DNA of 64,000 bases from Halorientalis sp. LT38 (GTDB lineage: Archaea > Halobacteriota > Halobacteria > Halobacteriales > Haloarculaceae). Each line of letters begins with the position of its first letter. Position 1 is the stretch's first letter. A program made the translations under genes and the position numbers. The notes beneath the pieces are model-generated. The model ran no database searches. It saw only the letters and a list, made by a program, of their open reading frames with translations, and was not told the origin of the DNA. This document shows, one piece after another, positions 2,230-14,373 of this stretch. The stretch spans positions 1,612,001-1,676,000 of the forward strand of contig NZ_JAYEZN010000001.1 of assembly GCF_037031225.1 (NCBI RefSeq). Direction: 5' to 3'.

Positions 2230-2470
2230 CGAGGGCGAGCGAAGCGAGCCCTCGGCAATTACGAACGGCGAACGGAGTGAGCCGTGAGTAGCGAGACTCG
2301 AGCAGCGAGGGATCGGAGATCCCTCGAGCAGCCGGCGCGAAGCGCCGGCGACGAAGTGAGAGTCTCGTTGCAAGCGAGCGGGGAACGCGAGGTCTTCGAC
2401 CTCGACTCGAACGGGCGGAGCCCGTGAGAGCGATGTGAGCCGTGAGCAGCGAGGCTCGAATCGCTCGTGT
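2222..2470. repeat. Hairpin-rich intergenic repeat, copy 1
   Basis: This stretch has no credible gene and is packed with short perfect inverted repeats with 3-nt loops. Examples are CGAGGGATC/GATCCCTCG around GGA, CCGGCGC/GCGCCGG around GAA, CGAGGTC/GACCTCG around TTC, and CGGGC/GCCCG around GGA. A larger stem, GAGACTC/GAGTCTC, encloses several of them. The first hairpin (GAGGGC/GCCCTC) overlaps the stop of the peptidase gene. A block of about 30 nt at 2263-2292, beginning GAACGGCGAACGGAGTGAG, recurs in inverted orientation at about 45726-45756. The region up to the regulator start at 2555 also holds that gene's TATA-like TTTATG at about 2525-2530. Confidence 0.7.
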
Positions 2471-2554
2471 TCGGCACCAATCCAGCCGATTCGTCGACAC
2501 CACGCTCGCTGGCGGTCTGCAACGTTTATGCCGCTCTCGGGACTGAGTACCAGC

Positions 2555-3100
2555 ATGACTGGCGATCGTGTTACGGTATCACTCACGGAGGAGGCACAGT
2601 CGGCGCTGGAAGAGCTCACCGAACGGACAGAGGAGAACCGCAGCGAGGTCATCCGAGGCGCGATCTCCTTCTACGCAGCGAACTTCGAGTCGGCGCGGGC
2701 GAGCAACAGCGACGACCTCCAGACGTACTATCAGCTGCTGACCACGGGCGAACACGTGTTGCTCGACGTCGACCTGCTCCACGCCTTTCTGGACAACGTG
2801 GAGGGCGAGGACGGGCCGGACCCGGAGTTTCTGGCGACCGTCGACCGGGTCGCGGACTACCACACACAGGAGTACGCCCAGCGGTTCGATTCGCTGGGGG
2901 AGATCCTCGAGTGGCTCTCTTTCTGCGGGTTCCTGACGGTCCGGGAGACCCACGGGGACAGCTATCAGGTCGTCTTCCCCTCCGAATCGGTCCGCTGGTT
3001 CATGACGCGGTTCATCCAGGGGAGCATCGGCGACCTGCCCTTCGAGGTCGAGATCGAGGAGAGCGTCTCGAAAGTATTACTGAAAGAGTGTGAAGAGTGA
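2555..3100 (+). CDS. Ribbon-helix-helix (CopG-like) transcriptional regulator
   Basis: The 181-residue protein begins with a ribbon-helix-helix DNA-binding domain at about residues 3-45. DRVTVSLTEEAQSALEEL forms the beta strand and first helix, and ENRSEVIRGAISFY forms the second helix. The remaining roughly 130 residues are a mixed alpha/beta region I do not recognise; it may bind a ligand or mediate oligomerisation. I choose ATG 2555 because a TATA-like TTTATG lies about 27 nt upstream, giving a leaderless transcript. The gene sits 108 bp before the Nramp-like/hydantoinase operon. A dyad at 3152-3174 in that gap is a plausible operator, so it probably regulates that operon. That link is inferred from position. 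Confidence 0.82.
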   Translation: MTGDRVTVSLTEEAQSALEELTERTEENRSEVIRGAISFYAANFESARASNSDDLQTYYQLLTTGEHVLLDVDLLHAFLDNVEGEDGPDPEFLATVDRVADYHTQEYAQRFDSLGEILEWLSFCGFLTVRETHGDSYQVVFPSESVRWFMTRFIQGSIGDLPFEVEIEESVSKVLLKECEE

Positions 3101-3151: not shown

Positions 3152-3174
3152 TCAACAATCCTTTTGATTGGTGA
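3152..3174. promoter_or_regulatory. Candidate operator dyad before the Nramp-like operon
   Basis: TCAACAATC and GATTGGTGA form an inverted repeat with 8 of 9 positions matching, separated by CTTTT. It lies just upstream of and touching an AT-rich box (GATAGATA, about 3173-3180) that is placed correctly, about 28 nt from the ATG at 3209, to be the TATA element. A protein bound here would block TBP/TFB. The ribbon-helix-helix regulator ending at 3100 is the obvious candidate ligand. This is inferred from symmetry and position only. Confidence 0.45.
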
Positions 3175-3208: not shown

Positions 3209-4417
3209 ATGGACATTGTTCAGCGATTCAAAACGATCGGACCTGGGGCGATGGTGGCGGCGGCGTTCATCGGCCCGGGGACGGTAACGACAGCGAGTGT
3301 CACCGGTGCTCGGCTCGGGTACGCCCTGCTGTGGACGATCGCGTTCTCGATCGTCGCGACCATCGTCCTCCAGGAGATGTCGGCCCGGCTCGGGCTGGTC
3401 TCGGGCGAGGGGCTCGGCGAGGCGCTCCGGAACCGGTTCGACAATCCGGCGATCGAGTACCTGGCCATCTTCCTCGTCGTCGGTGCGATCGGCGTCGGGA
3501 CCGCGGCCTACGAGGCCGGGAACATCCTCGGCGGCGCCGCCGGGCTGGCGACGATCACCGGCGTGAGTTCGACGATCTGGGGCGTCGTGATGGGGCTCGT
3601 CGCCGGGGCCCTGCTGTTCACCGGCAAGTACAAACTGATCGAGCGGGCGCTGGTCGCGCTCGTCGCCATCATGGCGTTTTCCTTCGTCGCGTCGGCGATC
3701 CTGATCGGTCCCGACCTCGGGGCGATCGCGGGCGGGTTCGTCCCGGGCATCCCCGAGGGATCGCTGTACCTCATCACGGGCCTGATCGGGACGACGATCG
3801 TCGGCTACAACCTCTTCCTGCACGCGAGCAACGTCCAGGAGCGGTGGTCCGGGCCGGGTGACCTCCCGGCGTCACGCACCGACACGATTCTCTCTATCGC
3901 GGTCGGCGGGTTCATCACGATCACGATCATGATCACCGCGGCGGCCGCGTTCCCGCTCGGGACCGAACTCGACGACGTCGGGCAGATGGCCCAGCAACTC
4001 GAACCGCTGGCGGGCTCGTACGCGAAGATCTTCTTCAGCATCGGGCTGTTCGCCGCGGGCTTCACGAGCGCGACGACCGCGCCGCTGGCCGGCGCGTGGG
4101 CGACGACGGGCGCGCTGGGCTGGGATTCCGACCTCAAGAGTCCGCGGTTCCGCGCGGTCTGGGGGACGATCCTGGCCGTCGGCGTCCTGTCGGTCCTGCT
4201 GGGCGGGAGTCCGGTCCAGATCATCGTCTTCGCGCAGGTCGTCAACGGCATTCTCCTCCCCATCGTCGCCATCTTCCTCATCTACGCGATGAACCAGACC
4301 GACCTCCTCGGCGAGTACACGAACGGCCCGGTCGCGAACGCGCTCGGGGCCATCGTGACGATCATCGTGGTCTGGCTGGGCCTTCGAACGCTCCTGAGTG
4401 TATCCGGGGTGCTCTAG
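3209..4417 (+). CDS. Nramp-like transporter lacking the canonical metal-site residues
   Basis: The 402-residue polytopic membrane protein has the Nramp/SLC11 fold, with about 11 hydrophobic helices and the TM6-type end LFLHAS. However, the TM1 signature DPGN is GPGT here (residues 22-25), and the TM6 signature MPH is V198-G199-Y200. Those residues normally coordinate Mn(II) or Fe(II), so ordinary divalent-metal transport is unlikely. Its stop codon abuts the hydantoinase A start with no gap, and the downstream genes are fused by 4-bp overlaps, so it should supply or export the substrate or cofactor of those enzymes. A TATA-like box at about 3173-3180 suggests a leaderless or near-leaderless operon mRNA. 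Alternatives are a Mg(II)-type or organic-substrate Nramp relative. Confidence 0.85.
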   Translation: MDIVQRFKTIGPGAMVAAAFIGPGTVTTASVTGARLGYALLWTIAFSIVATIVLQEMSARLGLVSGEGLGEALRNRFDNPAIEYLAIFLVVGAIGVGTAAYEAGNILGGAAGLATITGVSSTIWGVVMGLVAGALLFTGKYKLIERALVALVAIMAFSFVASAILIGPDLGAIAGGFVPGIPEGSLYLITGLIGTTIVGYNLFLHASNVQERWSGPGDLPASRTDTILSIAVGGFITITIMITAAAAFPLGTELDDVGQMAQQLEPLAGSYAKIFFSIGLFAAGFTSATTAPLAGAWATTGALGWDSDLKSPRFRAVWGTILAVGVLSVLLGGSPVQIIVFAQVVNGILLPIVAIFLIYAMNQTDLLGEYTNGPVANALGAIVTIIVVWLGLRTLLSVSGVL

Positions 4418-6421
4418 ATGAGCGACAGAGTCGTGGGCGTCGACGTCGGCGGGACCTTCACCGACGTGACGTTGCTGGTCGACGGCGACCTCGTCACGGC
4501 CAAGGTTCCGAGTACGGCGGATCAGAGCGACGGCGTCATGGCCGGGATCGAGAAGGCCTGTGCCGAGGCGGGCATCGACCCCGGGGAGATCGAGGCGTTC
4601 TCACACGCGATGACCGTGTCGCTGAACGCGCTCCTGGAGGAGTCGGGGGCGAAGACGGCGCTCGTGACGACCGCCGGGTTCAGGGACGTACTGGAGATCG
4701 GCCGGCAGGACCGGCCCGCCCTCTACGATCTCGACGCGGAGAAGCCCGCCCCGCTGGTCCCCCGTCGCCGGCGATACGAGGTCGACGAGCGGACGACGAC
4801 CGAAGGCGTCGAGCGGCCGGTCGACGAGGACGAGATCCGCGACGTCGCTGACGCGATCCGGGTGGACGACGCCGAGGCCGTCGCCGTCTCGCTGCTGCAC
4901 GCCTACGCCCACCCCGAGAACGAGCAGGCGGTCGCCCGGATCCTCCGCGAGGAACTGGACGTGCCCGTCTCCGCGTCCCACGAGGTGCTGGCGGAGTTCC
5001 GGGAGTACGAGCGGACCTCGACGACCGTCGTCGACGCGTACCTGCGACCCGCCATCGACCGGTACGTCGGCCACCTCTCGCAGCGAGCCACCGACGCCGG
5101 ACTGCCCGAACCCCGAATCATGCAGGCCAACGGCGGCATCACGGACGCCGAGACCGTGCGACGGAACGCCGTCCTGACGACGCTCTCGGGCCCGGCCGCG
5201 GGCGTCGTCGGCGCGAACGAGATGGCGTCCACCGCCGACGACGACCCGGCGCGACTCGTCACGTTCGACATGGGTGGCACTTCCAGCGACGTCAGCCTGG
5301 TGCGCGACGGCGAGGTCGAGCGGACGACCGACGGCGAGATCAACGACCGGCCGATCAGGACGCCGCTGGTCGACATCGAGACGGTCGGTGCCGGCGGCGG
5401 CTCGATCGCGTGGGTCGACTCCGGCGGGGCCCTCCGCATCGGCCCCCGATCGGCCGGCGCGGAGCCTGGACCGGCCTGTTACGGTCGCGGCGGCACCGAG
5501 CCGACCGTGACGGACGCCAACCTCGTCCTCGGATACATCGGGTCGAGTACCAGTCTCGGCGGGGAGCTATCCCTCGACGAGGCGGCGGCCCACGACGCGA
5601 TGGCCGACCTGGCCGAACGGGCGGGGATGGACGATCCGGTCGAGGCGGCCCGGGGCGTCTACCGTGTCGCCAACGCCAACATGACTCGCGCGATCCGGTC
5701 GGTCACGGTCGAGCGCGGCTACGACCCCCGGAAGTTCGGCCTCGTCGCCTTCGGCGGTGCCGGCCCGATGCACGCCGTCTCCATCGCGAGCAGCCTCGAC
5801 ATGGAGCGGGTAGTCGTGCCGCGGGCCTCGGGTGTCCTCTCCGCGTACGGCCTGCTGGCCGCCGACGAGAAACAGGACGCGGTCCGGACCTACCAGCGCC
5901 CGCTCGACGCCGTCGACCCCGATGCCGTCGAGGGAATCTACGACGACCTGGCCGACGAGGTGCTGGCCGAGATCAGCGACCCAGAGCGGGCGACTGTGAC
6001 GTACTCGGCCGACCTGCGATACGCCGGCCAGAGCTTCGAACTCGCCGTCGAGGTCGGCGACTCGTTCGACCCCGTGGCCGCCCGGGACCGGTTCGAGGAG
6101 TCCCACGAGGTCGCGTACGGCTACCGGATGGACGAGCCGGTCCACCTGGTCAACTGCCGCGTGACGGCGACGGTCGACCGCGACGTACCGGCCATCGACT
6201 ACGCCGCGACGGGCGACCCGCTGAAGGGAGCACGGGACGCGACCTTCGAGGACGGCGTCTACGAGACGCCGGTGTACGACCGGTCGCGGCTCCAGCCCGG
6301 ACGAACCCTGGGTGGCCCGGCGATCGTCGAACAGGACGAGAGCACGGTCGTCGTTCCCCCGCACTGGGACGTGCGGATCCGTGACGACGGCGCCCTCGTC
6401 TCCGAGGTGACCGAACGATGA
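4418..6421 (+). CDS. hyuA: Hydantoinase/oxoprolinase family protein, A subunit
   Basis: The 667-residue protein belongs to the HyuA/oxoprolinase family, whose members use ATP to open hydantoin or 5-oxoproline rings or, in related complexes, to carboxylate ketones. It opens with the actin-like phosphate loop GVDVGGTFTDV, has the second nucleotide motif FDMGGTSSDVSLV in the middle, and then VGAGGGSIAWVD. The length is usual for the stand-alone subunit. It starts directly after the transporter stop and overlaps the B subunit by 4 bp (ATGA), implying co-translation and complex formation. The substrate cannot be told from sequence. Neighbours suggest a pathway involving a dicarboxylate or hydantoin-type compound. 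Acts in the cytoplasm. Confidence 0.9.
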   Translation: MSDRVVGVDVGGTFTDVTLLVDGDLVTAKVPSTADQSDGVMAGIEKACAEAGIDPGEIEAFSHAMTVSLNALLEESGAKTALVTTAGFRDVLEIGRQDRPALYDLDAEKPAPLVPRRRRYEVDERTTTEGVERPVDEDEIRDVADAIRVDDAEAVAVSLLHAYAHPENEQAVARILREELDVPVSASHEVLAEFREYERTSTTVVDAYLRPAIDRYVGHLSQRATDAGLPEPRIMQANGGITDAETVRRNAVLTTLSGPAAGVVGANEMASTADDDPARLVTFDMGGTSSDVSLVRDGEVERTTDGEINDRPIRTPLVDIETVGAGGGSIAWVDSGGALRIGPRSAGAEPGPACYGRGGTEPTVTDANLVLGYIGSSTSLGGELSLDEAAAHDAMADLAERAGMDDPVEAARGVYRVANANMTRAIRSVTVERGYDPRKFGLVAFGGAGPMHAVSIASSLDMERVVVPRASGVLSAYGLLAADEKQDAVRTYQRPLDAVDPDAVEGIYDDLADEVLAEISDPERATVTYSADLRYAGQSFELAVEVGDSFDPVAARDRFEESHEVAYGYRMDEPVHLVNCRVTATVDRDVPAIDYAATGDPLKGARDATFEDGVYETPVYDRSRLQPGRTLGGPAIVEQDESTVVVPPHWDVRIRDDGALVSEVTER

Positions 6422-8013
6422 CCGACGACATCGACCCCGTGACGCTGGAAATCCTGCGGAACCAGCTAGAGAGCATCGCCGAGGAGATGGGGCACGTCCT
6501 CATCACCGGCGCGTACTCGCCGAACATCAAGGAGCGACAGGACTGTTCGACCGCCCTGTTCGACGCCGACGGGAAGATGGTCGCACAGGCCGAACACATC
6601 CCGGTCCACCTCGGCGCGATGCCCGACGCCGTCGACGCGATCATCGACGACGACCCGAAACCGGGCGACGTGTTCATCGTCAACGACCCCTTCGCGGGCG
6701 GGACGCACCTCCCCGACATCACGCTCGTCTCGACCATCGCGCCCGAGGACGACGTGATCGGGTTCGCGGTCTCGCGCGCCCACCACGCCGACGTGGGCGG
6801 CAGCGCACCCGGCAGCATGCCCCCGGGCGCCAGGGAGATCTACGAGGAGGGGCTCCGCCTGCCGGCCGTACGCCTCGTCGACGGCGGCGACCTGAACGAG
6901 GCGGTGCTGGACGTGTTGCTGGCCAACGTCAGGACGCCCGACGAGCGCCGGGCGGACCTCCGGGCCCAGCGCGCCGCCAACGAGCGGGCCGAACAGCGGA
7001 TCGGCGAACTGCTCGACGACCACGGCTCGCTGCTGCTGGACGCGTTCGACGCCGTCGTCGACTACTCGCGGGCCCGCGTCGAGTCCGAGATCGCCGACCT
7101 GCCCGACGGGGAGTACCGCGCCCACGACGTGCTCGAAGGCGACGGCGTGACGGACGAGGACATCCCGATCGAGGTGACGGTCACGATCGACGGGTCGACG
7201 ATCGACGTCGACTTCGCGGGCACCGCCGCGCAGGTGGCCGGCAACCTCAACGCGCCGCTCTCGGTCGGAAAGAGCGCGGTCTACTTCGTCGTCCGGGCGG
7301 TCACCGACCCGGAGATCCCGTCGAATCACGGCTGCTACGAACCGGTGACCGTCTCGGCACCCGAGGGGACGGTCCTCAACCCGAGGCCCCCGGCCGCGGT
7401 CGTCGGCGGCAACGTCGAGACCAGCCAGCGGGTGACCGACGTGACCCTCGCGGCGCTGGCCGAGGCCATCCCCGAGCGGGTCCCCGCGGGCGGCCAGGGG
7501 ACGATGAACAACCTCATCATCGGCGACCGCGAGGGCGAGTTCACCTACTACGAGACCATCGGCGGCGGGTTCGGCGCCCGACCCACCAGGGACGGCATGG
7601 ACGGCGTCCAGGTCGGGATGACGAACACGCTGAACACCCCGGTCGAGTCGATGGAGACCGAGTACCCGCTCCGCGTCGAGCGGTACGCCCTCCGGTCGGG
7701 AAGCGGCGGCGACGGGAAACACCGTGGCGGACTCGGACTCGAACGCTCGGTCACGGTCGAGACCGACGCGACCGTCTCCCTGCTCACCGAACGTCGCCGC
7801 ACCGCGCCCGCCGGCGTCGACGGCGGCGAGGACGGCGCGATGGGCGAGAACCTCGTCGACGGCGAATCGGTTCCCTCGAAGGCATCGGTCGACGTGAGCG
7901 CCGGCGCGACCGTGACCATCCGCACGCCCGGTGGCGGCGGTCACGGCGACCCCGACGACCGATCCGGGGAGGCACGAGAAGACGACCGCCGCGACGGGAA
8001 GGTGAGCGAATGA
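6418..8013 (+). CDS. hyuB: Hydantoinase/oxoprolinase family protein, B subunit
   Basis: The 531-residue protein is the HyuB partner. Family motifs include the N-terminal DPVTLEILRNQLESIAEEMG, ERQDCSTALFD, the block NDPFAGGTHLPDI, and GGGFGARPTRDGMDGVQ near the C-terminus. The length is usual (about 510-570). Together with the A subunit it should form an ATP-dependent ring-opening enzyme or a related carboxylase complex in the cytoplasm. The start overlaps the A-subunit stop, and its own stop overlaps the next gene's start, each by 4 bp, so the three enzymes are translationally coupled. The last 25 residues are charged and probably disordered, a common haloarchaeal tail. Confidence 0.9.
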   Translation: MTDDIDPVTLEILRNQLESIAEEMGHVLITGAYSPNIKERQDCSTALFDADGKMVAQAEHIPVHLGAMPDAVDAIIDDDPKPGDVFIVNDPFAGGTHLPDITLVSTIAPEDDVIGFAVSRAHHADVGGSAPGSMPPGAREIYEEGLRLPAVRLVDGGDLNEAVLDVLLANVRTPDERRADLRAQRAANERAEQRIGELLDDHGSLLLDAFDAVVDYSRARVESEIADLPDGEYRAHDVLEGDGVTDEDIPIEVTVTIDGSTIDVDFAGTAAQVAGNLNAPLSVGKSAVYFVVRAVTDPEIPSNHGCYEPVTVSAPEGTVLNPRPPAAVVGGNVETSQRVTDVTLAALAEAIPERVPAGGQGTMNNLIIGDREGEFTYYETIGGGFGARPTRDGMDGVQVGMTNTLNTPVESMETEYPLRVERYALRSGSGGDGKHRGGLGLERSVTVETDATVSLLTERRRTAPAGVDGGEDGAMGENLVDGESVPSKASVDVSAGATVTIRTPGGGGHGDPDDRSGEAREDDRRDGKVSE

Positions 8014-8711
8014 CCACCCGTCTCGGCCTCGTCGTCCCCTCCTCGAACACGACGGTAGAACCGGATTTCCGGGCGATGGCTCCCGAAGAGAGCACCGTCC
8101 ACGCCGCCCGGATGCCGCTCGAGGACGTGACCGTCGACGACCTCGACGAGATGGCAGGCGGTGCCGAACGCGCCGCGGAACTGCTCTCCCACGCCGCCGT
8201 CGACGGGATCGCCTACGCCTGCACCACCGGAAGTCTCCTGCACGGCACCGGCTTCGACGAGGAACTGGAGGCGCGGCTGTCCGAGGCGGCCGGCGCGCCG
8301 GCCGTCGCGACGGCCCTGTCGGTGAAACGCGCCCTCGCCGCGCTCGACGCCGAGACGGTCGCCGTCGTCACGCCCTACGCCTCGGAGCTGAACGAGCGGG
8401 AACGGGAGTATCTGGTCGACTCGGGGTTCGAGGTCGCCAGCCTCGACGGCCGGGGACTCGTCGCCAACACCGAGATCGGCGAGTTGACCGCCGCGGACGC
8501 CAGAGAGCAGGTCGAGTCGGCCGTTCCCTCCGCTCACTCCGTGGACGCCGTCTTCGTCTCCTGTACGAACTACCGCACCGTCCCGGCCCTCTCCGAACTT
8601 GAGGCGGCGCTCGACGTCCCGGTGATTTCGAGCAATAGCGCGACGATGTGGGACCTCACGGATCGACTGGGTCTGTCGACGTCACTCGACACGCGACTCG
8701 CCGAGCGCTGA
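8010..8711 (+). CDS. Asp/Glu-racemase-fold enzyme, maleate isomerase-like
   Basis: The 233-residue protein belongs to the two-cysteine Asp/Glu/hydantoin racemase superfamily. The N-terminal PSSNTTVEPD (Asn13) and the two cysteines C71 (in YACTTGS) and C185 (in VSCTNYRT) match the arrangement of maleate cis-trans isomerases and arylmalonate decarboxylases better than that of glutamate racemase. It would isomerise, racemise or decarboxylate a small dicarboxylate or hydantoin. Being the last gene of the operon and coupled to the B subunit, it probably prepares the substrate or handles the product of the hydantoinase complex. It converges with srp54, with a single base between the two stop codons. 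Confidence 0.82.
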   Translation: MTTRLGLVVPSSNTTVEPDFRAMAPEESTVHAARMPLEDVTVDDLDEMAGGAERAAELLSHAAVDGIAYACTTGSLLHGTGFDEELEARLSEAAGAPAVATALSVKRALAALDAETVAVVTPYASELNEREREYLVDSGFEVASLDGRGLVANTEIGELTAADAREQVESAVPSAHSVDAVFVSCTNYRTVPALSELEAALDVPVISSNSATMWDLTDRLGLSTSLDTRLAER

Positions 8712-8712
8712 T

Positions 8713-10125
8713 TCAGTCGCCGAACGGACCGCCACCGCCGCCCATACCGCCCATTCCGCCGGGGCCGCCGGGGCCGCCGCCACCGCCCTGCTGCATCTGC
8801 TTCATCATCCGCTCCATGTCCGCATCGCCCATCCCCTGGAACTGGTTGAGCGTCTTGGCCATCATCTTGTGCTGTTCGAGCAGTTCGCGGACGCGGTCTT
8901 CACTGGTGCCCGAGCCCTTCGCGATCCGTTTGACCTGGCTCTGGCCGATCGAGCGGGGGTGTTCGAGTTCGTCGTCGGTCATCGAGTCCATGATGACCTC
9001 GAAGCTTCGCATCCGGTCTTTGGTGACGTCCATGGCGTTGTCGGGCAACTGGTCCATCAGCCCGCCACCCATGCCGGGGATCATGTCCATCACCTGATCG
9101 AGCGGCCCCATGTTGTCCATGGCCTTCATCTGGTGGCGCATGTCCCGGAGGGTGAACTCCCCCTCCATGAGCTGTTCGGGGTCCCAGTCCTCCTCGTCCT
9201 GGGTCTCCTCCATCGCGCGCTCGACGCGCTCTGTCAGCTGTTTCAGGTCGCCCATCCCGAGCAGCCGGGAGATGAACCCCGACGGCTCGAACCGCTCGAT
9301 GTCCTGGACCGTCTCGCCGGTCCCGAGGAAGGCGATCGAGGAGCCGGTCTCGTTGACGGCCGCCAGCGCACCGCCACCTTTCGCCGTCCCGTCGAGTTTC
9401 GTGATCGCGACGCCCTCGATGCCGATTGCCGACTCGAACTCCTGGGCCTGGTCCTTGGCGGACTGGCCCATCGCGGCGTCGATCACCAGCAGGTTCCGGT
9501 CGGGGTCGACGGCCTCGTCGATGCGCTCGATCTGAGCGATCAGTTCCTCGTTCAGGCCGTCACGGCCCGCGGTGTCCACGATCCGGACGTCGGCCTCCTC
9601 GGTGGCTTCGAGGCCGGCCTCGGCGATCTCGACGGGGTCGTCGGCGTCGGGGTCGCCGTAAAAGTCCACCTCGGCGTTCTCGGCCATCTGCTTGGCCTGG
9701 TCGTACGCCCCGGGGCGGTCGGTGTCGGTCTGGATGACCGCCGGGCGCAGGCCCTTCTTCGAGAACCACCAGGCCATCTTCGCGGCCGTGGTGGTCTTCC
9801 CCGACCCGTAGAGACCCGCGAGGAGGATGGTCTGCTCTTCGAGGGGCAACTCGGTGGAGTCGCCGACGAGTTCGACCATCTCCTCGTAGACGACGCGGAG
9901 GACCCAGTCCCGCGCTGACGTGCTGCTTGGCGGTTCCTCCTCGAGCGCCCGGGTCTCGATGTTGTCCGACAGCTCCATCACCAGGCTCGTGTCCACGTCG
10001 GCCTGCAACAGCGAGCGCTGGATCTCCTTGACGACGGCTTCCACGTCGTCTGCGTCGATGCGGGACTTCCCCCGGAGGTCGTTCAGCGTCCCCCGGAGCG
10101 AACTCCCAAGATCGTCGAGCACCAT
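8713..10125 (-). CDS. srp54: Signal recognition particle GTPase SRP54
   Basis: The 470-residue protein is the SRP54/Ffh subunit that binds signal peptides on nascent chains and delivers ribosomes to FtsY. The N-domain helical bundle occupies about residues 1-90. The GTPase domain follows with P-loop [18 protein letters not shown] and [10 protein letters not shown]. The methionine-rich M domain ([20 protein letters not shown]) binds 7S RNA and signal sequences. The C-terminus is an extended Gly/Met-rich tail of about 30 residues. One G-domain motif reads DTDRPGA where many homologues have DTYRPAA. The gene stands alone, with a TATA-like element (CTTTACC on the minus strand, about 10157-10163). 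Confidence 0.96.
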
Positions 10126-10242: not shown

Positions 10243-11127
10243 TCAGTCCGCGGGCGTGGCGTCGACCGGTTCCGCCTCGCCCGCGCCCGAGCGTGCGAGG
10301 AGTTTGCCGACGGTGACCGAGACGACGTACAGGAGGACGCTCACGAGCACGATGACGCCGCCGGCGGTCGCCGACGAGAGGTACGCCAGCGTGATGCCGA
10401 GCACGACCGCGAGTTCGGCGAGGACGACGGCGGCCAGGAGCGAGGCCCGGAAGCTGTCGGCCAGTTGGGTGGCCGCGGCGACGGGCACCACGAGCATCGC
10501 GGCGACGAGGATGACGCCCATGATCTGCATCGCGCCGACGACGACGAGCGCGGTCAGCATGACCATCACGCGGTTGTACCAGGCGACGGGCAGGCCGGCG
10601 ACCCGCGCGGCGGTCTCGTCGAAGGTGACGAACAGCAGCTGCTTGTGGGTAACGGCGACGACGCCGACGACCAGTGCGAACAGCACCAGCATGAGCCGCA
10701 TGTTCTCGCTCGTCACGGTCGAGAGGTTGCCGAAGAGGTACTGGTTGATGCCGACGGCGAGCCCGCCCGCGTTCAGGCTGATGAGGACGGTCCCGAGCGC
10801 GAAGCCCGTCGAGAGGACGATCGCCATCGAGACGTCGTTGTACGCATCGGTCACCTCGGAGATGAGCTCGATGCAGAGCGCGGCCAGGACGGCGACCACC
10901 GTCGCGGTGAGATACGGCGAGACCCCCAGTTCGAGGACGCCGTTGAGGAAGAGGCCGACGGCGACGCCGGCGAAGGCGGTGTGGGCCAGCGTGTCCCCGA
11001 TGAGCGCCAGCTGGCGGTGAACGAGGAAGGTCCCGATCAGCGGGGCCATCACGCCGATGCAGAGCCCGACGACGAACGCCCGGCGCATGAACCCGTAGCC
11101 GAGCATGCCCTCGATCAGTTCGAGCAC
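10243..11127 (-). CDS. znuB: ABC-3-type metal ABC transporter permease
   Basis: The 294-residue protein is a polytopic permease of the ABC-3 family (ZnuB/TroC/MntB), with about eight hydrophobic segments and the family-typical GDTLAHTAFAGVAVG motif near residue 45. It forms the membrane channel for the ATPase and the binding lipoprotein encoded just upstream. The start is GTG at 11127, giving VLELIEGMLGYGFMRRAF; ATG at 11106 is an alternative. An ATG at 11162 overlapping the ATPase stop is in another frame and gives only 15 codons. The metal could be zinc or manganese; sequence does not decide. The znu symbol is provisional. Confidence 0.85.
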   Translation of the reverse strand: MLELIEGMLGYGFMRRAFVVGLCIGVMAPLIGTFLVHRQLALIGDTLAHTAFAGVAVGLFLNGVLELGVSPYLTATVVAVLAALCIELISEVTDAYNDVSMAIVLSTGFALGTVLISLNAGGLAVGINQYLFGNLSTVTSENMRLMLVLFALVVGVVAVTHKQLLFVTFDETAARVAGLPVAWYNRVMVMLTALVVVGAMQIMGVILVAAMLVVPVAAATQLADSFRASLLAAVVLAELAVVLGITLAYLSSATAGGVIVLVSVLLYVVSVTVGKLLARSGAGEAEPVDATPAD

Positions 11128-11158
11128 GGCGACACCTCCGGACCGGACGAGTTCCGGG

Positions 11159-11896
11159 TCATGGCGTCGTCCCCGAGACCTGCGGTCGCGCGCCGTAGAC
11201 CCGCGCGATGGTGTCGCTTTCCCGGAATTCTGCCGGGTCGCCGTAGTACCGGAGCCGGCGGTTCAGACAGGCGACCGTCTCGGCCCGCTCGCTGACGACG
11301 CCGAGGTCGTGATCGACGAGGACGACGGTCAGGCCGTCGGCGTGGAGGGCCGACAGCAGGTCGTAGAACGCCTCGCGGGACTCTGCGTCCACGCCGACGG
11401 CGGGTTCGTCGAGCGCGAGGAGGTCAGCGTCGCCGGCGAGCGCGCGCGCGATGAACGCTCGCTGGCGCTGCCCACCGGAGAGTCGCCCGATCCGTCGATC
11501 CGCGAGGTCCGCGATACCGACCCGCTCCAGCGCCTCTCGGGTGGCGGTCCGGTCCCGCTCTCTGAGCCGACCGAAGCCGACGTGGGGGTAGCGGCCCATC
11601 AGGACCACCTCCCGAACGGTGATCGGCATGTCCGTGGCCGACTCCCGGACGTCCTGGGCGACGTAGCCCACGCGCGTCCCGTCCGAAAAGGAGTGGGCGG
11701 GTTCGCCGAACAGCCGCACCGACCCCGCGTCGGGTTCGCGGAGGCCCAGCATGAGCGCCAGGAGCGTGCTCTTCCCCGAGCCGTTGGGGCCGACGACGCC
11801 GAGGAACTCGCCGTCCGAGACGGAGACCGAGACGTCTTCGACCGCCGGCGTCGGCCCGTAGCCGAAGGTCACGCCGTCGAGGTCGAGGACCGTCAT
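11159..11896 (-). CDS. znuC: Metal ABC transporter ATP-binding protein
   Basis: The 245-residue ATPase powers the neighbouring metal importer from the cytoplasmic face. It has Walker A GPNGSGKSTLLALML, the ABC signature RLSGGQRQRAFIARALAG, Walker B LLALDEPAVGVD, and the switch histidine in LVDHDLGVV. Its ATG at 11896 overlaps the stop codon of the binding-protein gene (ATGA), so the two are translationally coupled, and the permease follows 31 bp downstream. The order binding protein, ATPase, permease is the classic ZnuACB/TroABC layout. The specificity for zinc over manganese is not visible in this subunit. Confidence 0.93.
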   Translation of the reverse strand: MTVLDLDGVTFGYGPTPAVEDVSVSVSDGEFLGVVGPNGSGKSTLLALMLGLREPDAGSVRLFGEPAHSFSDGTRVGYVAQDVRESATDMPITVREVVLMGRYPHVGFGRLRERDRTATREALERVGIADLADRRIGRLSGGQRQRAFIARALAGDADLLALDEPAVGVDAESREAFYDLLSALHADGLTVVLVDHDLGVVSERAETVACLNRRLRYYGDPAEFRESDTIARVYGARPQVSGTTP

Positions 11897-12924
11897 AGCG
11901 ACTCGGTCCCCCCGTCGTAGTCGGCGTGGACGGTCTCGGCTGGTGGGGTCTTCCCGAGCACGATCTCGAAGGTGGGCATGTTGATCCGCCGGGCGATCTC
12001 GGCGTAGCCCCACCCGCGTTCCACCCACTGCTCGAGCGTGCCGGCGTACGGCGTCACCGGGTAGTACTGCTTCACTCGCGTCTCCTCGATCAACTGCCTC
12101 GCCGGTCGGTGGGATTCGAACACCGCCGCCGCGATGTACTCGATGTCGTTCTCGGCGACGAGCCTCGCCGCACGGGTGATCGCCTCCGGCGGCACGTCGC
12201 CCTCGGCAGCGAGGTTGAACACGAGGGGGTTCATCGCCACGTCGTACCGCGCGCCGAGGTACTGGAAGGCGTTGTGTGCGGCCAGCACCACCTGATCGCG
12301 CGGCGGGTCGGCGAACACCGCCCGGTACTCCTCGTGGATGACGTCGAGTTCCGACCGCAGCGCGTCCGCGTTGGCCGCGAACGTCTCCGCGTGGTTCGGA
12401 TACGCGGCCGCGAGCCCCGCCTCGACGTTGTCGACGGCCGTCTTCGACCGAAGCGGGTCGAGCCAGAAGTGAGGGTCCTTGCCGTCGGCGACCGCTTCGT
12501 CCTCGTCGAGACTGGCGGCGACGTCGAGCAGTTCGATCCCGTCGCGGACGTTCACGAACGCGGTGTCGGCGCCGTCGTCTTTGGCCGTCCGGATCGCGCG
12601 GTCGGCCCAGGGCTGGAACCCCTCGCCGACGTGGACGAACACGTCCGCGTCGATAATCGCCCGGGTGACGCTCGCGTCCGGCTCCCAGCCGTGCCCGTGC
12701 ATCCCGACCGGCACGAGGTTCTCGACCGTGACGGGCGTCTCCGCCGTGATCGTTCGCGCGAAGTCGAAGAAGGTGAAGAAGGACGCCGCCACGTCGGCGC
12801 GCTCCCCCTCCGCGGCCGTCAACAGCCCGGAACACCCCGCGAGACCGACGGCGGATAGCGCCCCGCCCGCGGCGAGCACCGACCGCCGCGAGCGCCGACG
12901 GACGGGTGAGTTTCGATCGTTCAT
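11893..12924 (-). CDS. znuA: Metal-binding lipoprotein of ABC importer (ZnuA/TroA family)
   Basis: The 343-residue protein is the extracellular solute-binding component. The N-terminus carries a twin-arginine-like region (RRRSRRSVLAAGG) ending in a lipobox with Cys at AGC, so it is probably Tat-exported and lipid-anchored. Metal-ligand histidines of the cluster A-I family are visible in VGMHGHGWEPD, DPHFWLDP and LAAHNAFQYLG. I choose ATG 12924 because the TATA box (TTATAT on the minus strand, about 12951-12956) places transcription start within a few bases of it. The in-frame ATG at 12939 would lie upstream of that start site. A DtxR-like palindrome is upstream, suggesting metal repression. 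Confidence 0.9.
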   Translation of the reverse strand: MNDRNSPVRRRSRRSVLAAGGALSAVGLAGCSGLLTAAEGERADVAASFFTFFDFARTITAETPVTVENLVPVGMHGHGWEPDASVTRAIIDADVFVHVGEGFQPWADRAIRTAKDDGADTAFVNVRDGIELLDVAASLDEDEAVADGKDPHFWLDPLRSKTAVDNVEAGLAAAYPNHAETFAANADALRSELDVIHEEYRAVFADPPRDQVVLAAHNAFQYLGARYDVAMNPLVFNLAAEGDVPPEAITRAARLVAENDIEYIAAAVFESHRPARQLIEETRVKQYYPVTPYAGTLEQWVERGWGYAEIARRINMPTFEIVLGKTPPAETVHADYDGGTESL

Positions 12925-12948
12925 CGTGCTAGTCTTCATTGGATACAA

Positions 12949-13215: not shown

Positions 13216-14373
13216 TCAGTCCTCGTCGTGCCCGAGGAGGCGGTCGACGATGACCTCGGGGTCGAACGGTTCGAGGTCGTCGTAGTCCTGACCGGTCCCG
13301 AGGAACAGAATGGGTTTCCCGGTGACGTGGGCGATGGAGATGGCCGCGCCGCCCTGCGGGTCGGCGTCGGCCTTGGTCAGCACCGCGCCGTCGATCGCGG
13401 CGGCGTCGTCGAACTCCGTCGCGCGGTTGACGGCGTCCTGGCCCGCCACCGCCTCGTCGACGAAGATCGTCATGTCGGGCTCGATCACCCGATCGATCTT
13501 CTCCAGCTGGTCCATCAGGTCGTTGCTGGTGTGGAGCCGGCCGGCCGTGTCACCCAGCACCACGTCCACGTCGTTGGCCTCGGCGTACTCGACGGCGTCG
13601 TAGATGACCGCGGCCGGGTCCGAGCCCTGCTCGTGGGAGATCAGCCGCTCGTCGAGGGCGTCGGCGTGTTGCTGGAGCTGCTCGTTCGCGCCGGCGCGGT
13701 AGGTGTCGCCGTTCGCCAGCACCGTCGAGTAGCCCCGCTCGTCGAACCACTGGGAGAGCTTCGCGATGGTGGTCGTCTTCCCGACGCCGTTGACGCCGGT
13801 GAACACCATCGTCACGGGTTTGTCGGCCTCGGCGATCCGCTCCTCGAAGTCGAACTGGCCGACGCTGATCACGTCGACCAGCGCGTCCCGGAGCGCCTCC
13901 TCGACGACCAGGCCCGTGGTCTTGACCTTCGAGCGCGTCTCGCCCTCCAGGTTCTCGCGGATCCCCGTCAGGATCTCCTGAGCGACGCTCAGCTCGACGT
14001 CCGAGGAGAGCAGCGCCATCTCCAGTTCGTCGAGCGGGCCCTCGAGGTCCTCGAGTTCGATGACCTCTTTGCCCGTAGCGGCGAGTTTCGCCCGCTCCAT
14101 CAGGCCGCGGTCGCTCCCGCCGTCGTCCTCGGCGGCGGACTCCGACTGCGGCTCCGGTTCGGCGTCCCGGTCGGATTCCGGTCGCTCGTCGGCGTCCGCA
14201 GGCGCCGTGGACTCGGCGTCAGATGCCGCCGACTCGGCGGCTTCCGCCTCGGCTTCGGCAGCCGCTGCCTCGTCGACTGATTCGGCCTCGGCCGCGTCCT
14301 CGTCGACGGGTTCGGCCTCCTCCTCGACGTCCTCCTTGAAGCTGTTGAGCTTGTCTTTCAGTCCGTCGAACAT
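13216..14373 (-). CDS. ftsY: Signal recognition particle receptor FtsY
   Basis: The 385-residue SRP receptor docks SRP54-ribosome complexes at the membrane by forming a GTPase heterodimer. An acidic, Ala/Glu-rich A domain (about residues 1-90) shows the amphipathic start MFDGLKDKLNSFKEDV that would contact lipids. The NG domain follows, with P-loop GVNGVGKTTTIAKL, DTYRAGA, DTAGRL and TKADADPQGGAA. The gene is last in an apparent operon rpl18a-pfdA-ftsY, starting 6 bp after the pfdA stop. That cluster is typical of euryarchaea and links nascent-chain folding and targeting. The other half of the targeting machinery, srp54, lies about 3 kb away on the same strand. Confidence 0.96.
   Translation of the reverse strand: MFDGLKDKLNSFKEDVEEEAEPVDEDAAEAESVDEAAAAEAEAEAAESAASDAESTAPADADERPESDRDAEPEPQSESAAEDDGGSDRGLMERAKLAATGKEVIELEDLEGPLDELEMALLSSDVELSVAQEILTGIRENLEGETRSKVKTTGLVVEEALRDALVDVISVGQFDFEERIAEADKPVTMVFTGVNGVGKTTTIAKLSQWFDERGYSTVLANGDTYRAGANEQLQQHADALDERLISHEQGSDPAAVIYDAVEYAEANDVDVVLGDTAGRLHTSNDLMDQLEKIDRVIEPDMTIFVDEAVAGQDAVNRATEFDDAAAIDGAVLTKADADPQGGAAISIAHVTGKPILFLGTGQDYDDLEPFDPEVIVDRLLGHDED

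Follow-up and report, generated by a model that had tools for sequence, protein, structure and literature searches.

A GPGT-type Nramp-related protein encoded with hydantoinase/oxoprolinase genes in haloarchaea is a candidate 5-oxoproline importer

The window analysed here, a 64,000-nucleotide stretch of the Halorientalis sp. LT38 genome, includes a gene for an Nramp-related protein which we read as a probable secondary importer of 5-oxoproline (pyroglutamate), taken up as food and feeding a two-subunit oxoprolinase (we put the probability of this at roughly 0.7, from sequence comparisons). The reading rests on the replacement of the metal contacts, which is invariant whichever oxoprolinase adjoins, and 5-oxoproline is preferred over the hydantoins because the unrelated partner enzymes of the transporter, PxpABC and HyuAB or its fused form, would share the ATP-dependent opening of 5-oxoproline. 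The first-pass annotation had suggested an organic solute such as hydantoin, oxoproline or a dicarboxylate; the idea of an organic solute is strengthened and may be narrowed to 5-oxoproline by the pxpABC and fusion neighbours, while hydantoin appears disfavoured.

The GPGT protein and its operon

The reading frame is intact and stop-free (402 aa), with an in-frame TTG upstream at position 3164 and orthologue alignments that begin at the ATG at 3209. The protein belongs to the Nramp superfamily, with a match to the Pfam Nramp family (PF01566) that covers the whole family and scores 338 bits (cut-off 29.8), and its gene is the sole Nramp-family gene of the host genome. The AlphaFold model (pLDDT 91, pTM 0.89) has helices 1 and 6 broken at residues 21–22 and 197–198, at the GPGT and VGY motifs, and its top structural matches are all Nramps (DraNramp, EleNRMT and BfraNramp, with TM-scores of 0.82–0.86). 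The Nramp fold and intact frame proposed from the first reading of the DNA are borne out by these results.

Site positions were read from an alignment with DraNramp, BfraNramp and EleNRMT, which places G22 and T25 at the Asp and Asn of the TM1 motif, and V198, G199 and Y200 at the Met, Pro and His of the TM6 motif. G22, T25, V198 and Y200 thus occupy the places of all four side chains that contact the metal (Asp, Asn, Met and His), and the earlier claim that GPGT for DPGN and VGY for MPH leave no canonical metal contact is upheld. The DPGN/MPH signature of Nramp metal transporters is absent from the window protein and from the whole GPGT clade, whose members carry TM1 GPG[TS] and TM6 V[PGT]Y[NA] in 139 of 139 proteins with no exception; the TM3 acidic residue (E134 of DraNramp) is also missing from the window protein, which has N105 there, and the clade rows have Asn in 139 of 140 cases and Asp in one. 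As the motifs are invariant across the clade, the GPGT/VGY substitution is, on the evidence of the alignments, not a decayed site. Clade members are nonetheless annotated as 'Nramp family divalent metal transporter'.

Table 1. Features of the transporter locus and its surroundings, with positions given for the window.
Feature	Position	Strand	Basis
RHH (CopG-type) regulator, probable local operon regulator, exact start uncertain	2435..3100	+	Pfam RHH_1
GPGT-type Nramp-related transporter gene, 402 aa	3209..4417	+	Translation, Pfam, alignment, AlphaFold model, structural matches
TM1 motif G22-P23-G24-T25, replacing DPGN	3272..3283	+	Alignment, clade rows
TM3 E102 (at D131 of DraNramp) to N105 (at E134)	3512..3523	+	Alignment, clade rows
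TM6 motif V198-G199-Y200-N201, replacing MPH	3800..3811	+	Alignment, clade rows
Stop TAG (4415-4417) directly abutting hyuA ATG (4418)	4415..4420	+	Sequence
hyuA, ATP-binding subunit, hydantoinase/oxoprolinase family	4418..6421	+	Pfam, motifs, structural matches
hyuB, second subunit, 4-nt overlap with hyuA	6418..8013	+	Pfam, motifs, structural matches
Asp/Glu-racemase superfamily gene (maleate isomerase / arylmalonate decarboxylase-like), 4-nt overlap with hyuB	8010..8711	+	Profile, motif, structural matches
Zn/Mn-type ABC importer genes (ZnuA, ABC ATPase, ABC-3 permease), about 2 kb 3' of the operon	10243-12948	-	

The transporter gene runs into hyuA with no gap, as had been noted earlier, and from the abutting and overlapping junctions (Table 1) we take the transporter, hyuA, hyuB and the racemase-superfamily gene to be one tight operon behind the RHH regulator. 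The zero-gap junction is retained in many orthologous loci, the RHH gene is found just 5' of the transporter gene in nearly all of those from haloarchaea, and the racemase-superfamily gene is linked in most but not all. No clear palindrome that could serve as a conserved operator was established in 51 upstream stretches, which have in common words that are TTCATACG-like and CTCAACAA/CTTAACAA.

HyuA retains its ATP-site motifs (DVGGTFTD, DMGGT and GAEPGP) and HyuB its metal-site residues (ERQDCS, GTHLPD and HHADVGG, with the aspartate and the His-x-x-Asp-...-His pattern; motif definitions from PMC8453981). Judged by these motifs, HyuAB has what the sequence of an ATP-dependent lactam hydrolase requires, and in this it resembles the fused 5-oxoprolinases and the caprolactamase family, but it differs from them in being unfused and haloarchaeal and in having a putative substrate. 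The racemase-superfamily protein is nearest to the maleate isomerases and has two cysteines, C71 and C185, both of which are kept in 38 of 40 loci. Arylmalonate decarboxylase has one cysteine, and so a racemase or isomerase fits the fourth gene better.

The host genome has one HyuB, and PxpB was not found in it. An orphan pxpA (LamB/YcsF) lies elsewhere in the genome (G000:C1:65803-66564, equivalent to L162:7804-8565) with no adjoining pxpB or pxpC, and pxpA is present in only two of 39 sampled relatives. HyuAB is therefore the only evident oxoprolinase candidate of the host, which supports the importer reading; that HyuAB would act as a 5-oxoprolinase is suggested by the bacterial partners of the transporter together with this absence of PxpB. 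We also note two SRP54-type GTPase genes on the reverse strand, a few kb apart and on either side of the ZnuABC-type genes, one for SRP54 itself and the other FtsY-like (8713-10125 and 13216-14373).

Distribution, gene neighbours and phylogeny

Orthologues of the transporter (E <= 1e-90) were identified in 112 of the 392 genomes of the order that made up our haloarchaeal sample, and hyuA or hyuB adjoins the transporter gene in 109 of these 112. A HyuB orthologue lies 3.1–4.2 kb from the transporter start in 76 genomes, and the other 36 regions were inspected individually, with hyuA directly downstream in 33. The exceptions are a region that ends at a contig end (G505) and two with no hyu gene nearby, in G365 (55% identical, RHH gene kept) and G394 (57% identical, racemase-type gene kept). 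At one locus (L043), the adjacency persists after rearrangement. The laboratory strains Haloferax mediterranei and Haloarcula hispanica are among the haloarchaea with the gene. Two divergent haloarchaeal GPGT genes are without hyuAB, one beside a racemase-superfamily gene and the other beside an RHH gene only (L250, 5645-6847, and L249). The phylogeny and gene neighbours proposed as a check in the first-pass annotation thus gave a link with hyuAB that is consistent across haloarchaeal genomes.

It should be noted that HyuB orthologues are far more widespread than the transporter, being found in 344 of the 392 genomes, and HyuAB therefore also works without it. Compared with the transporter, the enzyme has either an earlier origin or a wider use, and this difference in distribution counts against the importer reading. 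As HyuB is so often present regardless of the transporter, presence or absence co-occurrence was dropped as evidence and only adjacency is informative in the haloarchaea. No common transporter was found among the HyuAB neighbours in genomes lacking the GPGT gene; one such hyuAB locus (L256, 1159-5030) has no Nramp-like gene and is preceded by what look by eye like Liv-type ABC genes (branched-chain amino acid or amide). None of 20 other haloarchaeal Nramp-family loci, about 30% identical, is next to hyu or pxp genes, and we take both this and the adjacency in 109 of 112 genomes to support the importer reading.

For the bacteria, GTDB species genomes were scanned with a GPGT-type profile and the best 80 loci were kept, of which 78 are bacterial. 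The GPGT/V-x-Y clade is present in Bacteroidota, Pseudomonadota, Bacillota and Actinomycetota, and 33 of these 78 loci lie within 6 kb of pxpABC (identified as PxpA, PxpB and PxpC by Pfam and NCBIfam), usually directly upstream and on the same strand; in 31 of the 33, the distance to a pxp gene of the same orientation is at most 1 kb. By a crude estimate, chance would account for 0.3 loci. Two further loci, both from Bacteroidota, have a 1252-aa oxoprolinase-like HyuA-HyuB fusion directly downstream, and we regard the pxpABC and fusion neighbours as support for 5-oxoproline import. The transporter is thus linked to an oxoprolinase at 35 of the 78 bacterial loci among the best 80 and, taking HyuAB as one, in 109 of the 112 haloarchaeal genomes. 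Two of the pxp-linked loci (L095 and L151) also have D-glutamate cyclase genes. Members of the D-glutamate cyclase family interconvert D-glutamate and 5-oxo-D-proline, and we count these genes, too, in favour of the importer reading. PxpABC and HyuAB or the fused oxoprolinase are unrelated enzymes (PMC8453981), with oxoprolinases described as the fused form and hydantoinases as the unfused form in the same paper on caprolactamase.

The remaining 43 of the 78 loci are without a linked oxoprolinase, a share which is not a census, given that a Pseudoalteromonas sequence served as the seed of the scan. They are mostly from Alteromonadales, Halieaceae, Porticoccaceae and Idiomarinaceae, and that members of the Alteromonadales, Halieaceae and Idiomarinaceae mostly lack the linkage speaks against the importer reading. 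At no bacterial locus among the 78 was the transporter beside a hyuAB operon or classical hydantoinase operon, and the recurrent link with hydantoinase genes suggested earlier consequently holds for the haloarchaea but does not extend to bacteria. In 20 GPGT genomes tested, pxpA was found in 19 and HyuB in the twentieth, but the co-occurrence of pxpA is weak evidence by itself because the gene is common in bacteria. In SAR324 the place of an oxoprolinase after the GPGT-type gene is taken by a DUF2848 gene (L110:10409-11125).

In a quick-search maximum-likelihood phylogeny built from 117 rows (SH-aLRT support, root not inferred), the haloarchaeal hyuAB-linked proteins formed a clade of their own with a support of 100. 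This clade groups with the pxp-linked proteins of Natroniella and Alkalihalobacillus (SH-aLRT 91, or 95 when joined by the unlinked SAR324 locus), and the grouping with pxp-linked Bacillota again supports the importer reading. The fusion-linked pair is nested among pxp-linked Bacteroidota, and the type of linkage changes at least eight times inside the GPGT clade. The simplest reading of the tree would be one carrier whose partner enzyme was replaced, with PxpABC in most linked bacteria, the fusion in two Bacteroidota and HyuAB in the haloarchaea, though an unrooted tree with several weak forks does not prove which way the replacement went.

Related carriers and alternative readings

Oxoprolinase operons that include a carrier of the Nramp fold are already known. 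A preprint from 2026 (PMC12873925) reports on a paraphyletic set of Nramp-related proteins that lack DPGN/MPH, including GPG-type groups, and places Bacillus subtilis MntG (YcsG) in its 'G-motif 3' group. YcsG has been published as an Mn importer from physiological data (PMC10448178), while Corynebacterium glutamicum cannot grow on 5-oxoproline once it loses PxpT, which shares 50% identity with YcsG (PMC13274462); as a remote relative of the window protein, PxpT lends support to the importer reading. Besides the Nramp fold and genes within 5-oxoprolinase (pxp) operons, the YcsG/PxpT and GPGT proteins share three residues, with Gly in place of the Asp of TM1, Tyr in place of the His of TM6 and Asn in place of the Glu of TM3. 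However, YcsG/PxpT proteins have GPGF in TM1 and GGY in TM6, the identity of the window protein is only 22% with the B. subtilis YcsG model 9a52 and 23% with a Bacillales YcsG-type protein (L173), and the YcsG-type rows form a clade apart from GPGT in the tree (support 100). An identification of the window protein as YcsG was rejected on these grounds, and the GPGT proteins are therefore a second, distinct Nramp-related clade attached to oxoprolinases. The Nramp-type neighbours of Bacillales pxp loci are mostly YcsG-type, and Alkalihalobacillus algicola has two pxp clusters, one with a GPGT-type gene (L122) and the other with a YcsG-type gene (L173). No description of the GPGT clade, its haloarchaeal hyuAB form or the exchange of partner enzymes was found in the literature searched, and a search for Nramp and hydantoinase together gave no match.

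MumT of Acinetobacter baumannii may be a further case, being an Nramp-family protein with less than 25% identity to reported Nramps and having carboxyltransferase-type genes in its operon (by description only), but it is reported as an Mn importer linked to urea metabolism, again from physiological data (PMC5050338). The 'urea carboxylase/allophanate hydrolase' genes of the mum operon are, by description, of the kinds found in pxp operons, and the urea/Mn reading may merit re-examination (PMC5050338). The canonical Nramp/MntH proteins DraNramp and BfraNramp have the fold of the window protein (TM-scores 0.82–0.85) at about 26% identity, but the window protein has other residues in place of every metal ligand and of the TM3 Glu.

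We consider it unlikely that the GPGT protein is still an importer of a divalent, Mn-like metal through a rebuilt site, supplying HyuB or other nitrogen enzymes so that the operon link reflects a cofactor rather than a substrate. HyuB does retain a divalent-metal site, EleNRMT moves Mg despite its altered site, and published work credits MumT and YcsG, from pxp-type operons, with raising the Mn content of the cell (PMC5050338, PMC10448178), data which keep a metal role alive and weigh against the importer reading. Set against this are the loss of every canonical side-chain ligand, with G, T, V and Y replacements that are invariant or nearly so, the PxpT growth phenotype, and the difference in fold and cofactor between PxpABC and HyuAB, which would share one substrate; moreover, the ZnuABC-type importer about 2 kb downstream gives the cell another candidate metal route. 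An Mg importer resembling EleNRMT is very improbable: this Nramp-related Mg transporter is one of the closest solved structures (TM-score 0.86) and also has an Nramp fold without the DPGN/MPH ligands, but it has DAGG and APW at the aligned TM1 and TM6 positions, moves Mg and Mn, and is not known to lie in an oxoprolinase operon, and the genomic context of the window gene holds no pointer to Mg.

The import of some other cyclic amide that HyuAB opens, such as hydantoin, N-methylhydantoin (from creatinine breakdown), a dihydropyrimidine or a lactam other than 5-oxoproline, seems to us no likelier than Mn import. The best-scoring solved relative of both HyuA and HyuB is an N-methylhydantoinase, which together with the putative substrate of HyuAB is a point against the importer reading, and a racemase-superfamily gene would suit a hydantoin pathway too. 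Matches of HyuA and HyuB to caprolactamase models are moderate in score but far below the cut-offs, a Pfam reading of the operon genes found no HyuC-type carbamoylase gene, and the GPGT clade adjoins PxpABC in several phyla, all of which favour 5-oxoproline over these other amides.

Proposed mechanism and implications

5-oxoproline is a spontaneous product of glutamate and glutamine and a compatible solute in halophilic methanotrophs (PMC13274462), reaching 0.4 M in one of these (as cited in PMC13274462), which gives its uptake an ecological motive. As an imported substrate, it would be bound at the former metal position between the unwound TM1 (GPGT) and TM6 (V-G/P-Y-N), where Y200, N105 and the backbone amides of the GPG turn may stand in for the metal ligands. 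The carboxylate would lie against the TM1 GPG turn, by analogy with the amino-acid carriers of the APC superfamily, and the lactam near Y200 and N105. HyuAB would then use ATP to open the lactam, yielding glutamate. Conversion of the D form may fall to the racemase-like enzyme (D-glutamate cyclase being a neighbour in some bacterial loci), and control of the operon to the RHH protein. More broadly, the chances seem evenly balanced that two Nramp branches, GPGT and YcsG/PxpT, became 5-oxoproline carriers by loss of the metal site while keeping Gly, Tyr and Asn, and that the GPGT carrier stayed while unrelated oxoprolinase partners were exchanged, in which case the Mn phenotypes of YcsG and MumT would be indirect.

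If the GPGT clade moves 5-oxoproline, then a widespread branch of the family is mislabelled as 'Nramp family divalent metal transporter', and the conflict in the literature between Mn and 5-oxoproline import would become testable on a clade without any metal ligand. It would also provide a natural case of a metal-carrier fold turned organic-acid carrier, and the haloarchaea would gain a defined route for using 5-oxoproline.
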